The translations under genes were made by a program, and so were the position numbers. This document shows, in pieces, positions 22,585 to 26,544 of a stretch of 64,000 nucleotides of DNA. The notes under the pieces are model-generated. The model ran no database searches, had not been told where the DNA came from, and was given only the letters and a program-made list of their open reading frames with translations. Origin of the DNA: Terriglobales bacterium (GTDB taxonomy: Bacteria; Acidobacteriota; Terriglobia; Terriglobales; Acidobacteriaceae); NCBI GenBank assembly GCA_025936825.1, contig JAICSO010000002.1:372001-436000 (forward strand), in the 5' to 3' direction. How positions within the stretch are numbered: position 1 is the stretch's first letter; every line of letters starts with the position of its first letter.

Positions 22585-23322
22585 CTATTCTTCAGCGCCG
22601 ACGGCGGCGAGTTGTACCAGCGGCGCAGCGGTGTTCCCGGCGGCCGCGTGTAGGCCGCACTCGGTTTTGCGGAAGCCGGACCAGCGTCCCGCGCGAGCGT
22701 CTTCGCCCGGCAGAACAGCGCGGGTGCAATTGGTGCAGCCAATGCTTGGGTAATTTCGATCGTGGAGCGGGTTGTAGGGCACGTCGTGCTTAACGATATA
22801 ACTCCATACTGTCTGGTGTCTCCAATCCGCGAGAGGATTGATCTTCACCAGGTTGAATTTCGGGTCCCATTCGACTTTCTTAGCCGAGGCGCGCTGCGGG
22901 GTCTGCCCGCGGCGAATTGCGGTGATCCAGGCATCCAGCGTAGCAAGCTTGCGGCGCAGCGGCTCGATCTTGCGAAGTTCGCAGCACCTGTCGGGATTAG
23001 TTGCCCAAAGCTCTGGACCAAACTCGCGTTTCTGCTCTTCCGGCGAAAGCTGGGAGAGAATCCGCTCGATCTTGACTCCGTAGCGCTCTTCGACGCGGTC
23101 GATCAAATCGTAAGTTTCGGGGAACAGGAACTCGGTGTCGCCGGTGAAGACTTTCAACCCCGGATGGATGCGCGAGGCGATGTCGAGAAGCACCATACCC
23201 TCGGCGCCCATTCCGGTGGCGATGGCCACGCGGTCGCCGTATGTACTGAACGCCCATGACAAGACCTGCTCTGCGTTCCATCTTTCGGCTGCGAGGCTTA
23301 TATGCTCAATGTCGGTCTTCAC
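22585..23322 (-). CDS. cysH: Assimilatory adenylyl-sulfate (APS) reductase, iron-sulfur type
   Basis: A 245-aa reductase of the PAPS/APS reductase family. It has the ATP-PP-loop-like IATGMGAEGMVLLDIASR, GDTEFLFPETYDLIDRV, and two Cys pairs (RCCELRKIEPL and CTNCTRAV) with the catalytic ECGLH near the C-terminus. The two pairs bind a 4Fe-4S cluster, which marks enzymes that use APS rather than PAPS. It converts activated sulfate to sulfite with thioredoxin. GTG 23322 overlaps the cobA stop (GTGA), showing tight coupling in the sirohaem/sulfate operon. Confidence 0.92.
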   Translation of the reverse strand: MKTDIEHISLAAERWNAEQVLSWAFSTYGDRVAIATGMGAEGMVLLDIASRIHPGLKVFTGDTEFLFPETYDLIDRVEERYGVKIERILSQLSPEEQKREFGPELWATNPDRCCELRKIEPLRRKLATLDAWITAIRRGQTPQRASAKKVEWDPKFNLVKINPLADWRHQTVWSYIVKHDVPYNPLHDRNYPSIGCTNCTRAVLPGEDARAGRWSGFRKTECGLHAAAGNTAAPLVQLAAVGAEE

Positions 23323-24116
23323 GCGCTTTCTCCGGTACCAGGACTTACCACTGAGTACTGAGGTCGCACAGAAAAATCTTTGAACTGCTCGCGCAACTGG
23401 CGCGCTTCGGCAAAACGCACGACCTCGCCAACAACCAGCAGACGCGCGGCGGTCAGGCGCGGCGCCGCAAAAAGATTGGCGACAACGGTGAGGTGCACTT
23501 GCTCGGATTCGATAGTTGCGCCGGAAATGATCGCGCAAGGCGTTTCCGGCGCAACTCCGGAGGACAACAGACGCTGCTGCAACGAGGACAATTGATGGCC
23601 GGGCATGTACACGACTAATGTCGCGTTTTGGGGGAGGGCGTCAGGCCAATTCGCTATGTGCTCAGCGTTCCTGCTGTTTCCGGTAACCAGAATCAAAGTC
23701 GAAGAAAGATCGCGATGGGTGAGCGGAATCTGCGTGCCGGCGGCGGCGCCAAGGGCGGCCGTGATTCCGGGGACAACTTCGGTCTCGATGCCCGCCAGGC
23801 GAAGGGCTTCGAGCTCTTCCCCGCCCCGTCCGAAGATGAAGGGATCGCCACCTTTCAGTCGGACGACATTCAGGCCCATGAGCGAGTACTGAACCAAAAG
23901 CTTGTTGATGTCCTCTTGCGGCGTGCTCTTCATGCCGCAGCGCTTGCCGACATCGATCAACTTGGCATCGTGCGGCACTAGCGCGAGAATTTCGGGACTG
24001 ACCAGGCTGTCGTGCAGAACGACATCGGCGGAGCGGAGCACTTTGACCGCCTTGACCGTAAGGAGTTCCGGATCGCCTGGGCCCGCGCCCACCAGAAATG
24101 CTTTGCCGGCCTGCAT
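23319..24116 (-). CDS. cobA: Uroporphyrinogen-III C-methyltransferase
   Basis: A 265-aa SAM-dependent methyltransferase that makes precorrin-2, the step before sirohaem. Family signatures are complete: FLVGAGPGDPELLTVKAVKVL at the N-terminus, HDSLVSPEIL, RLKGGDPFIFGRGGEELEAL, VVPGITAALGAAA and THRDLSSTLILVTG. Its ATG overlaps the stop of the upstream dehydrogenase gene (ATGA), and its stop overlaps cysH (GTGA). Sirohaem is the cofactor of sulfite reductase, so the operon couples cofactor supply to sulfate reduction. Confidence 0.95.
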   Translation of the reverse strand: MQAGKAFLVGAGPGDPELLTVKAVKVLRSADVVLHDSLVSPEILALVPHDAKLIDVGKRCGMKSTPQEDINKLLVQYSLMGLNVVRLKGGDPFIFGRGGEELEALRLAGIETEVVPGITAALGAAAGTQIPLTHRDLSSTLILVTGNSRNAEHIANWPDALPQNATLVVYMPGHQLSSLQQRLLSSGVAPETPCAIISGATIESEQVHLTVVANLFAAPRLTAARLLVVGEVVRFAEARQLREQFKDFSVRPQYSVVSPGTGESA

Positions 24117-24712
24117 CAGTTTCGCCCGCCTTTCTGCGCCGCAACCTGCGCGTCAAAAGAAGAGCGGCTGGCGAGTTCGTGCAGGATGCGCTTGCGAACA
24201 TCAGGATCCAGATCGCTGGCGGCAAGTTCTTCACGCTGCTTGCCAAGTTCGGCGACCCACGACTCGTACTCAGGGCCAAACTGTTGTTCGAGCTCCTGGC
24301 GAATACGTTGGGCCAGTGCGGGACTTTGGCCGCCGGTCGAGATCGCGATCTGCAGGTCTCCACGTCGAACTAGAGCCGGGTAATAGAAGTCGCAATTCGG
24401 CGGATCATCCACAGCGTTGCAGAGAATGCCTTTGGCGTGGGCTTCCGTAAATACGCGCGCATTCACGTCGCGACAAGAGGTAGCGACGATGACCAGAAAC
24501 TTCCCTTCCAAGTCGGCGGACTCGAATTCACGCTGATGCCAGTCGATAGCTCCCGCGGACGCCCATTGGCGAATCTGCGATGTGGCCTCAGGGGCAACAA
24601 CCTTTACGGAGGCGCGCTCGGCAAGAAGACCCTGAATCTTGCCTTCGGCGATAGCTCCGGCGCCGACTACCAGGCAAGGCCGCGATTCGAGTTTTAAGAA
24701 AATAGGAAACAT
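24116..24712 (-). CDS. Precorrin-2 dehydrogenase/sirohaem synthase N-terminal domain protein
   Basis: A 198-aa protein equal to the N-terminal half of CysG. It begins FPIFLKLESRPCLVVGAGAIAEGKIQGLL (NAD-binding GAGAIAEGK), followed by VVAPEATSQIRQWA, VIVATSCRDVNARVFTEAH, NAVDDPPNCDFYYPALVRRGDLQIAISTGGQSPALAQRIR, ending in a helical dimerisation part. It oxidises precorrin-2 to sirohydrochlorin and may insert iron. ATG 24712 is only 8 nt after the terminator hairpin of the leader, so hairpin formation would also hide the ribosome site. Confidence 0.93.
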   Translation of the reverse strand: MFPIFLKLESRPCLVVGAGAIAEGKIQGLLAERASVKVVAPEATSQIRQWASAGAIDWHQREFESADLEGKFLVIVATSCRDVNARVFTEAHAKGILCNAVDDPPNCDFYYPALVRRGDLQIAISTGGQSPALAQRIRQELEQQFGPEYESWVAELGKQREELAASDLDPDVRKRILHELASRSSFDAQVAAQKGGRN

Positions 24713-24720
24713 GCGTTTAC

Positions 24721-24780
24721 CACAAAAGGAAAAGCCCGCTACCAGGGTCACTGGCGACGGGCTTTTCTAAACCTTTTGTG
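24721..24780 (-). terminator. Attenuator hairpin in the cysG-cobA-cysH leader
   Basis: On the minus strand the stem is AAAAGCCCG...CCAG / CTGG...CGGGCTTTT followed by CCTTTTGTGG, an intrinsic terminator. An outer stem CACAAAAGG (24721-24729) with CCTTTTGTG (24772-24780) encloses it. The 5' arm contains GCCAGTG (plus-strand 24749-24755), which can instead pair with CACTGGC in the leader ORF (plus-strand 24813-24819). It sits 8 nt before the first structural gene, where a plain end-of-gene terminator would be odd. Confidence 0.8.
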
Positions 24781-24791
24781 TTCTCAGTGTG

Positions 24792-24878
24792 TCAGGTCAG
24801 AAGCTTCCGCATGCCAGTGTGTAGACACGGACAACAACAGAAACAACACTGGCAACAGCTTTTACGAGAAGCGTTCAT
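24792..24878 (-). CDS. Poly-cysteine leader peptide of the sulfate/sirohaem operon
   Basis: A 28-codon ORF starting at ATG 24878 and ending with TGA at 24792. Codons 8-18 hold eight cysteines in the order CC-Q-CC-F-CCC-P-C; the rest has no repeated residue of that kind. It lies between a candidate promoter and a terminator hairpin, directly upstream of genes for cysteine-destined sulfate reduction. The Cys codons overlap RNA segment 1 (TGCCAGTGT, plus-strand 24846-24854), which pairs with segment 2 (ACACTGGCA, plus-strand 24812-24820). This is the arrangement expected of ribosome-mediated, cysteine-responsive attenuation. It is too short to have been expected from length alone; the support is composition and context. 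Confidence 0.85.
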   Translation of the reverse strand: MNASRKSCCQCCFCCCPCLHTGMRKLLT

Positions 24879-24889
24879 TGGTTCCGTAT

Positions 24890-24919
24890 ATCGTAGGGAC
24901 TGGCTCATTTCGATGTCAA
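24890..24919 (-). promoter_or_regulatory. Candidate sigma-70 promoter for the cysteine leader
   Basis: A perfect TTGACA -35 box (plus-strand 24914-24919), an 18-bp spacer and TACGAT as -10 (plus-strand 24890-24895). Transcription would start around 24882-24884, only a few bases before the leader ATG, so the leader message would be nearly leaderless. Confidence 0.6.
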
Positions 24920-24981
24920 CGTTACTGATGACCAATTTACATGCAAAGTTTCAATCTTATGTATCAAAATTCCAGCGACCC

Positions 24982-26544
24982 TCAATGGGCCATGGACGGG
25001 CCCTTGCCTCCCTTGGGCTTACGCATCAGGAACAATAAAGGTAGCAGTACCAGGAACATACCTCCCAGGAAGCGGAAAACGTCGTTGTAGGACAGCATGG
25101 AGGCTTGCCGCAGGACCATGCCCCAAACGGCCCCTTCGGCCTGATGGGCGGCAGTAACCGCGTCGGCACCCCGGCTCATAAACACCTGTTCAAGGCCGCG
25201 AAAAGTCTGCTGCGCGGCGGGGTTGGAGCCGTTTACATGGGCCCCGAGAATATTGGTGTGCGCCTGCATCTGGCGGAATTGCAGGGTAGTAACAGCAGAA
25301 ATCCCCATGCTGGCGCCGATGTTGCGCATCAGGTTGAAGAGGCTGGTGGCGTTGCCCATGCGCTCGCGCGGAATGGGATCGTTGGTGACGGTGGTCAGGG
25401 GCACGAAAATTAAACCCAGGCCTGCACCCTGAATCATCAGCGGCCACCAGAAATTCCAGAAGCCGACGTCGAGGCTGAAAGTGGAAACGAGGAACATCGC
25501 GATCGCGGTAGCGGTAAGGCCGACCGCAAGGAGTTTTCGTGCATCAACCTTGCCGGTGAGAATGCCGACAATCGGCATGAACAGGAATGACGCCAATCCA
25601 CGGGGCAAATTCGTGACGCCGGCGTGAGTGGCGGTGTAGCCGAGCAATTCCTGCATCAGGAGCGGCAACAGCACCGTGCTGCCGTAAAGCACGAAACCAA
25701 CAATGGTCATCAGGAACGTGCCGACCGCGTAGGATCGGTATTTGAAGACGGTGAGGTCGATGACCGGGTGCTTGGCCTTCAGCTCGCGGATGATCAGGCC
25801 ACCCATGCCAATAATCGCCAGCACCAGCAGCGTAATGATGAAGTGGGACCCAAACCAGTCTTCTTCCTGGCCCTTGTCGAGCATGATCTGCAACGATCCC
25901 ATGCCGACCGTGAGCAGGCCGATACCCCAATAATCGATGCCGGTTTTTTCGCGGCGCAAATACGGCGGGTCAAAGACGAATGCTTGCGTGAGAAGAATGG
26001 CGATCACGCCGATGGGGACGTTGATATAGAAGACCCAGCGCCAGCTGTAGTTGTCGGTCAGCCAGCCCCCGGCGACCGGGCCGAGCATGGGCGCGACCAC
26101 AATGCCGAGCGCCCAGAACGCCATGGCTTGTCCCCGCTTTTCGGGCGGGAAGGATTCGAGCAGGATTGCCTGGGACAACGGCTGCAGTCCTCCGCCGCAC
26201 GCGCCTTGAATGACGCGGAAGATGATCAGGAACGGTAAGGACGGGGCCAGCCCGCAAAAGAAGGATGCGACGGTAAATCCGGTGACGGCCATCATGAGCA
26301 GGCGCTTGCGGCCGAAACGGCCGGCGAGCCAGCCGGTCATGGGCAGAATGATGGCGTTCGCGACCAGATAAGAGGTCAGAGTCCAGGTTGCTTCATCAGT
26401 GCTGGCGGAGAGGCTTCCGGCGATGTGCGGCAGCGAGACGTTAACGACGGTGGTGTCCAAGACCTCCATGAAGGTGCTGGACATGACCGCGATAGCGATG
26501 AGCCAGGGATTGATTTGGGGTTGGACCTGCGGGGCTGAGCTCAT
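24982..26544 (-). CDS. DHA2-family multidrug efflux MFS transporter (EmrB-like)
   Basis: A 520-aa inner-membrane exporter with about fourteen helices. Motifs: FMEVLDTTVVNVSLPHIAGSL (motif D1), GWLAGRFGRKRLLM (motif A), GACGGGLQPLSQAILLESFPPEKRG and GPVAGGWLTDNYSWRWVFYINVPIG (motif C), all typical of EmrB/QacA drug-proton antiporters. No EmrA-like adaptor or TolC is adjacent. The C-terminus ends basic (FLMRKPKGGKG). It lies upstream of the cysteine leader, on the same strand; the leader's own promoter and terminator separate them. Confidence 0.92.
   Translation of the reverse strand: MSSAPQVQPQINPWLIAIAVMSSTFMEVLDTTVVNVSLPHIAGSLSASTDEATWTLTSYLVANAIILPMTGWLAGRFGRKRLLMMAVTGFTVASFFCGLAPSLPFLIIFRVIQGACGGGLQPLSQAILLESFPPEKRGQAMAFWALGIVVAPMLGPVAGGWLTDNYSWRWVFYINVPIGVIAILLTQAFVFDPPYLRREKTGIDYWGIGLLTVGMGSLQIMLDKGQEEDWFGSHFIITLLVLAIIGMGGLIIRELKAKHPVIDLTVFKYRSYAVGTFLMTIVGFVLYGSTVLLPLLMQELLGYTATHAGVTNLPRGLASFLFMPIVGILTGKVDARKLLAVGLTATAIAMFLVSTFSLDVGFWNFWWPLMIQGAGLGLIFVPLTTVTNDPIPRERMGNATSLFNLMRNIGASMGISAVTTLQFRQMQAHTNILGAHVNGSNPAAQQTFRGLEQVFMSRGADAVTAAHQAEGAVWGMVLRQASMLSYNDVFRFLGGMFLVLLPLLFLMRKPKGGKGPSMAH

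Follow-up and report, generated by a model that had tools for sequence, protein, structure and literature searches.

A putative cysteine-tuned transcription attenuator with a leaderless sensor ORF upstream of sirohaem and sulfate-reduction genes in Acidobacteriota

Introduction

Leader-peptide attenuators of the enterobacterial trp/his type follow a 1:2, 2:3, 3:4 pairing logic, with leader codons for the end product of the pathway. For cysteine, the closest described systems are the poly-cysteine leaderless short ORFs of mycobacteria (Canestrari et al. 2020, as presented in passages of PMC9094748 and PMC13236596). The original prediction for the DNA analyzed here noted that such ORFs are reported to act as cysteine attenuators. 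The Mycobacterium smegmatis case is described as translation attenuation in a passage of PMC13236596, and actinobacterial cys leader peptides are reported as lacking an obvious or conserved terminator hairpin in an excerpt of a 2005 study (PMC1262725). In alphaproteobacteria, the uORFC-8-2 motif is found upstream of cysS in Rhodobacterales (excerpt of PMC8632094). For Acidobacteriota, a 2010 survey lists almost no predicted attenuator with known function, as far as its excerpt goes (PMC2965389). A search of the open-access literature by titles and abstract starts, which for some queries covered the best 20 or 40 matches and left most subscription papers outside, brought up no recognisable report of cysteine attenuation in acidobacteria or ahead of sulfite reductase or peroxiredoxin genes.

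Here, a poly-cysteine leader is described from a 64,000-nucleotide stretch of DNA (the window). It is very likely a ribosome-mediated transcription attenuator tuned to cysteine, with promoter use, translation, stalling, termination and the response to cysteine all inferred. The evidence consists of sequence, conservation and mutually exclusive predicted folds; there are no expression, ribosome or term-seq data.

The window leader shares with the trp/his attenuators the pairing logic and the use of end-product codons, but differs in the amino acid sensed, in its leaderless start and in an antiterminator rod that encloses a stop-codon hairpin. As in the mycobacterial and actinobacterial leaders, as far as the excerpts describe them, a short Cys-rich ORF proposed as a cysteine sensor precedes cysteine-synthesis operons, and the mycobacterial ORFs are likewise leaderless, by the title of Canestrari et al. 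2020. Compared with what those excerpts report, however, the leaders here are predicted to have a conserved intrinsic terminator and an antiterminator that exclude each other, and the genes differ from the mycobacterial ones (sulfite reductase, sirohaem genes, cysH and peroxiredoxin). With its predicted terminator, the leader does not fit the mycobacterial terminator-less, translation-acting class, as portrayed in parts of PMC1262725 and PMC13236596. The uORFC-8-2 motif also has uORF Cys codons within a stem, followed by an intrinsic terminator, but in the excerpt of PMC8632094 it has two tandem Cys codons and precedes cysteinyl-tRNA synthetase. If the proposed reading is correct, cysteine attenuation here would work through a terminator, with a leaderless ORF as the sensor, and would be conserved in different families of apparent Acidobacteriota; it would also offer a natural test case for leaderless translation coupled to transcription.

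Results and Discussion

The leader ORF, its predicted promoter and the genes that follow

The leader ORF lies on the minus strand (24792-24878), begins with ATG at 24878, and has 28 codons plus the stop codon TGA (24794-24792). It translates as MNASRKSCCQCCFCCCPCLHTGMRKLLT, with Cys at codons 8, 9, 11, 12, 14, 15, 16 and 18, so that the predicted 28-codon ORF with eight Cys within codons 8-18 is exact on translation. When all 64 kb of the window were scanned in six frames, no other stretch was as dense in Cys as this 8-of-11 one (24825-24857, minus strand; P 1.3e-14 per stretch, given a Cys frequency of 1% in the window). Clustered codons for one amino acid in a short leader ORF are a criterion for an attenuator, met here by sequence, with translation inferred. 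TGT is used in seven of the eight Cys codons, versus 31 of the 123 Cys codons in 31 window ORFs. In the 38 leaders aligned below, TGT makes up 70% of 283 Cys codons (198 TGT, 85 TGC). As both codons are used, it is Cys itself that is kept, not only the DNA, and the preference for the locally rarer codon is consistent with a sensor role.

A sigma-70-like promoter, TTGACA-18-TACGAT (24890-24919, minus strand), is the sole promoter-like site in the 1 kb scanned (mean of 0.4 in shuffles), and the leader ATG lies 11 nt downstream of its -10 box. The expectation that a TTGACA promoter would make the message nearly leaderless describes a trait common to the 38 leaders: a TTGAC -35 box, 16-18 nt from the -10 box, is present in 37 (shuffle rate 0.6%), and the ATG follows the -10 box by 6-13 nt in 36. 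SD-like motifs precede the ORF in two of the 38. Given this spacing and the rarity of SD-like motifs, the message is probably leaderless or nearly so, with the start site inferred from promoter-like sites. To the same extent, the mycobacterial-type criterion of a leaderless Cys-rich ORF is met. Just upstream of the -35 box, GTAA occurs with TTGAC following within 1-4 nt in 13 of the 38 leaders (no chance level is available); it might serve for activator binding or as an UP-like element.

The leader is followed on the minus strand by genes for precorrin-2 dehydrogenase (the sirohaem synthase N-terminal domain, 24116-24712), uroporphyrinogen-III C-methyltransferase (SUMT, 23319-24116) and CysH, a (P)APS reductase (22585-23322). 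These genes serve the synthesis of cysteine, as is required of genes behind a cysteine attenuator. The three assignments match those first proposed, except that APS reductase specifically cannot be affirmed, as the choice between APS and PAPS is not settled. CysH scores above the cut-off of the NCBIfam model for phosphoadenylyl-sulfate reductase and somewhat below that for APS reductase (222.7 vs 235.3 bits). Its CC and CXXC motifs are those of the iron-sulfur APS type.

Predicted RNA structures and proposed mechanism

Three alternative pairings are predicted in the window leader, all on the minus strand. Segment 1 (24843-24858) is the 5' arm of the 1:2 hairpin and segment 2 (24807-24822) its 3' arm; the 9-nt core of segment 1 (24846-24854) and positions 24812-24820 (plus-strand numbering) are perfect complements, as predicted. 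Part of segment 2 (24819-24807) also forms the 5' arm of the antiterminator, and segment 3 (24749-24763) is both the 3' arm of the antiterminator and the 5' arm of the terminator. The 7-nt pairing originally noted between segment 2 and the terminator (24813-24819 with 24749-24755) is exact, but the helix is larger than 7 bp. The predicted fold of the antiterminator is a long rod of segments 2 and 3 that encloses an inner hairpin (24766-24801, formed by 24801-24794 with 24774-24766), with the stop codon at the edge of its loop. This 2:3 structure has 22 pairs including the inner hairpin (-24.7 kcal/mol, z -3.49). The leader as a whole folds more stably than 200 of 200 dinucleotide shuffles (z -3.25).

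The terminator hairpin (3:4; 24721-24780, U-rich tract at 24733-24724) folds as had been claimed, 8 nt before the first gene (ATG 24712-24710). Thus a predicted intrinsic terminator lies between the leader ORF and the first gene, a further criterion for an attenuator. A simple terminator scan reported no terminator at the leader (shuffle mean 1.2), but folding places the hairpin clearly; we take the miss to reflect the loop and T-tract limits of the scan, although this is presumed only. The exclusivity of the 1:2, 2:3 and 3:4 pairings that had been inferred is borne out at the level of predicted folds, in the window leader and in its relatives. In Rfam, the best match in 24400-25300 of the window was below the gathering score (the rnk leader and others, far below), and five related leader loci had no match.

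In the proposed mechanism, RNA polymerase would begin transcription close to where the leader ORF starts, and the leaderless or nearly leaderless message would be loaded with a ribosome. When charged Cys-tRNA is plentiful, the ribosome would pass the Cys codons and reach the stop codon, where it would sit inside the would-be antiterminator while segment 1 pairs with segment 2 behind it. Segment 3 would then be free, the terminator would form, and transcription would end just before the first gene. When Cys-tRNA is short, the ribosome would stall at the first Cys codons and cover segment 1, so that segment 2 would pair with segment 3 in the long rod around the stop-codon hairpin. Formation of the terminator would be blocked and the sirohaem and sulfate-reduction genes transcribed.

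Conservation of the leader in relatives

Precorrin-2 dehydrogenase was searched in 61 genomes (the window's own genome and 60 relatives), with matches in 30, and the upstream region was read at 31 loci, the second copy of the own genome included. The leader lies directly before the gene at five of the 31 loci (own genome, three congeners and one other genus); at several others it is further upstream, before sulfite reductase. The second precorrin-2 dehydrogenase of the own genome (L002, G000:C96:105267-105824) is 53% identical, and a second NIR_SIR match (C96:98574) is located some 6 kb away; a scan upstream of this gene copy found no Cys leader.

Of 300 genomes of the family, 55 had matches at E <=0.1 to a profile built from four leader peptides. 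Thirty loci from this profile were inspected: 18 were accepted, 11 were chance-like and one (L176) is an odd early-stop variant. In this variant (L176/L220, genome G012), the leader is MTLTRDHVKMLCCCCA and the ORF does not include the conserved TGGCGCGGG segment. With a wider profile, matches at E 0.001 were obtained in 34 of 298 genomes, from which 20 of 21 new places were used; four matches had no locus. Locus L182, with no ORF under the 5-Cys filter, was left out, and its genome has a 4-Cys leader. The resulting alignment (A5) holds 38 leaders from 38 genomes. The promoter is present in 37 of these, the 1:2 hairpin in 37, the 2:3 pairing in 38 and the terminator in 38, and in every leader a GGG-T-run end follows the stop codon. 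Absence of the Cys run or of the pairing segments from relatives would have refuted the original prediction; both are kept, the pairing in some relatives with partly different letters. However, Cys codons served to find the leaders and a motif to locate the segments, so Cys content and motif presence in this set are partly so by construction. A diverged leader outside the 38 (genome G035, L010) has a fold z of -7.15.

At the level of the phylum, a profile of 18 leader peptides gave two matches in 297 genomes, both in the window's family and one of them the own genome. Either the design reaches no further or a 28-residue model is too narrow. A contig scan for the Cys-codon pattern gave at least 117 stretches, in which in-frame short ORFs are mostly low-complexity TGY runs; with neighboring genes left out, it is uninformative on spread outside the class.

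Folding and covariation in the 38 leaders

The part from segment 2 to segment 3 was folded alone, as the state with a ribosome held on the Cys codons. Single-sequence folds were used in place of an RNAalifold consensus, as the latter had 6 pairs and almost no covariation term (-0.01, one of the six pairs covarying). In all 38 single folds, the segment 2:segment 3 helix has at least five of its six core pairs, and 6-15 further pairs form inside the rod, around the stop codon. Rod stability has a mean z of -3.1 against dinucleotide shuffles, with at most 4% of shuffles as stable in 35 leaders and 9-14% in the other three (L199, L200 and L202). Segment 2 ends 17 nt from the stop codon in 37 of the 38, so a terminating ribosome would sit inside the rod.

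In full-length folds, the terminator forms in 38 of 38, and two to five of the five core bases of segment 2 are paired upstream. In 37 leaders (all but L203), the upstream partner of segment 2 begins at about the first Cys codon and the two arms flank the CCC codons. This partner reads GCCAGUG in most of the window's genus; elsewhere it is CGCCAGA, UCGCGC or another sequence, to which segment 2 remains complementary. Against synonymous shuffles of the leader, the 1:2 signal is weak (mean z -0.9). Of the two folds, the terminator has the greater stability in 30 leaders (mean -26.8 vs -23.5 for the rod), and thus the decision on readthrough would have to be kinetic.

Covariation support is modest, since the CTGGC/GCCAG core hardly varies. 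At one flank of the 2:3 helix, 14 of the 38 leaders have A-U, 11 have U-A and 11 are unpaired. Cells of the 2:3 helix changed on both sides number 17, versus 9.2 in shuffles, and 88.1% of cells are paired, versus 86.1% shuffled and 28-53% slid. Three 2:3 pairs are changed on both sides, a number reached by 156 of 500 shuffles. All 38 leaders have the GGC codon of segment 2, while the codon that follows it is GCG in 17, GCA in 8, GCC in 4 and others in 9.

Leaders upstream of sulfite reductase

A search was also seeded with sulfite reductase, not with Cys codons, and the 250 nt upstream were examined for an ORF of 10-45 codons with at least 4 Cys in 14. Sulfite reductase was found in 74 of 120 family genomes, at 78 places, and a Cys-rich ORF was upstream at 56 of 78 in the sense direction, versus 1 of 78 in antisense and 1 of 77 further upstream. 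A class-wide search found the gene in 71 of 250 genomes; 17 non-duplicate loci from the 30 listed were added, for an enlarged set of 95. In this set, the Cys ORF is present at 69 of 95 loci, versus 2 of 95 in antisense and 1 of 94 further upstream, and 26 fail the rule. A terminator of -10 kcal/mol or lower is present at 65 of 95 (2 and 2 in the controls), and ORF and terminator occur together at 58 of 95. With a 3-Cys version of the rule, the count is 82 of 95 (3 and 8 in the controls).

Two other families of the class contribute 19 genomes with sulfite reductase to the class-wide search. At eight of their loci that were inspected, seven have at least 4 Cys in 14 and the eighth has 3 Cys, and a hairpin and T-run follow the ORF at 8 of 8 (by eye). 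Outside the first group, the 2:3 pairing has z < -1.5 at 25 of 55 loci tested, and a clear 2:3 helix is absent or weak at the other 30. In genus g50, the pairing is seen at one of five loci tested, and a second design may exist there. In Granulicella sp. L60 (Terriglobia, Acidobacteriota), sulfite reductase has the leader MAFGITDFAACCTCRRDCARRCLCLGNRPIE, then a hairpin and T-run; this locus is 80% identical over 1,787 bases to a family f1 locus. By this similarity, the group of genomes with the leader is linked to Acidobacteriota.

Alternative explanations

Poly-TGY runs do arise by chance elsewhere in this genome and in unrelated genomes, but for a chance Cys run to have met a chance hairpin is scarcely credible here, with position, frame, stop distance, pairing and gene context conserved in many genera. 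The leader might instead encode a working small Cys-rich peptide for metal or redox binding, with the hairpin serving only for ordinary termination or for processing. Short peptides rich in Cys are able to bind metals, and the peptide end TGAGRLLT is conserved in many leaders. That end, however, overlaps segment 2 and the stop-codon hairpin, and within segment 2 it is the GGC codon that is invariant while the codon after it varies. The number and spacing of Cys also vary, as does length, which is 27-31 among the 38 leaders and falls to 11 ahead of peroxiredoxin (starts inferred). The ORF moreover directly precedes sulfur genes, and the terminator behind it is able to pair with it, all of which makes a functional peptide very improbable.

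The regulation may also be translational, with the hairpin hiding the ribosome-binding site of the first gene and stalling freeing it. In four leaders (L156, L160, L161 and L165), the likely start of sulfite reductase lies 7-8 nt past the stem, at the end of the U-run (starts inferred), and the 3' arm GGUGGG could serve as an SD; the mycobacterial poly-Cys ORFs are also called translation attenuation in a passage of PMC13236596. However, the GC-rich hairpin with a T-run in 38 of 38 leaders is what intrinsic terminators would show, and translational attenuation as the main explanation is considered unlikely, although the two modes are not mutually exclusive. Transcription attenuation tuned to cysteine is thus the preferred reading.

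Other leaders of the same genome and a possible redox signal

The window's own genome has a second poly-Cys leader on the same contig, beginning about 9.8 kb left of the window and placed before sulfite reductase (G000:C34 from 362174, plus strand; L319/L333). It translates as MAMLKTCTQKLMACCCCACCVPSGDGE and has the segments CCCAGAAG, CUUCUGGG and CCAGAAG, plus a terminator. It keeps the attenuator logic with other letters. A third leader, MRAFCMPCCCCCTRAPVCG (G000:C45 near 116750, minus strand; L335), precedes a peroxiredoxin gene with AhpC-TSA and 1-cysPrx_C domains (1-Cys-type). Other poly-TGY sites of the genome are chance-like, by two non-exhaustive patterns and with three sites left out.

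A search of the window's family for this peroxiredoxin found it in 88 of 120 genomes. At least 4 Cys in 14 precede the gene at 15 of 30 listed loci (L375-L404), versus 1 of 30 in antisense and 0 of 28 further upstream. With the rule relaxed to 3 Cys, with CC, among the last 15 codons (run without a control), 20 of the 30 listed loci have a Cys leader; of these 20, a CCCA(C/T)C arm follows in 18 and a recognisable 3' arm in 14. The 2:3 pairing has z < -1.5 in 9 of 18. The poly-Cys attenuator design thus apparently extends to an antioxidant gene, and this apparent branch hints at a redox regulon that relies on the charging of tRNA. Possibly, though this is somewhat less likely than not, charged Cys-tRNA is a general thiol/redox signal, with poly-Cys attenuators over sulfite reductase, over sirohaem synthesis and APS reduction and over 1-Cys-type peroxiredoxin. 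Depletion or oxidation of the cysteine pool would then turn on both cysteine synthesis and peroxide defence without a protein sensor.

Operon layout

Ferredoxin-type sulfite/nitrite reductase is the first gene of the operon in seven of ten regions read. In the remaining three, all from the window's genus, the first gene is precorrin-2 dehydrogenase or SUMT. A four-gene run of sulfite/nitrite reductase, precorrin-2 dehydrogenase, SUMT and cysH was verified in genome G031 with Pfam and NCBIfam. In two congeners, a LysR-type regulator gene follows cysH (L237:2611-3501 and L241:3133-4023), and a protein regulator may act on the same operon.
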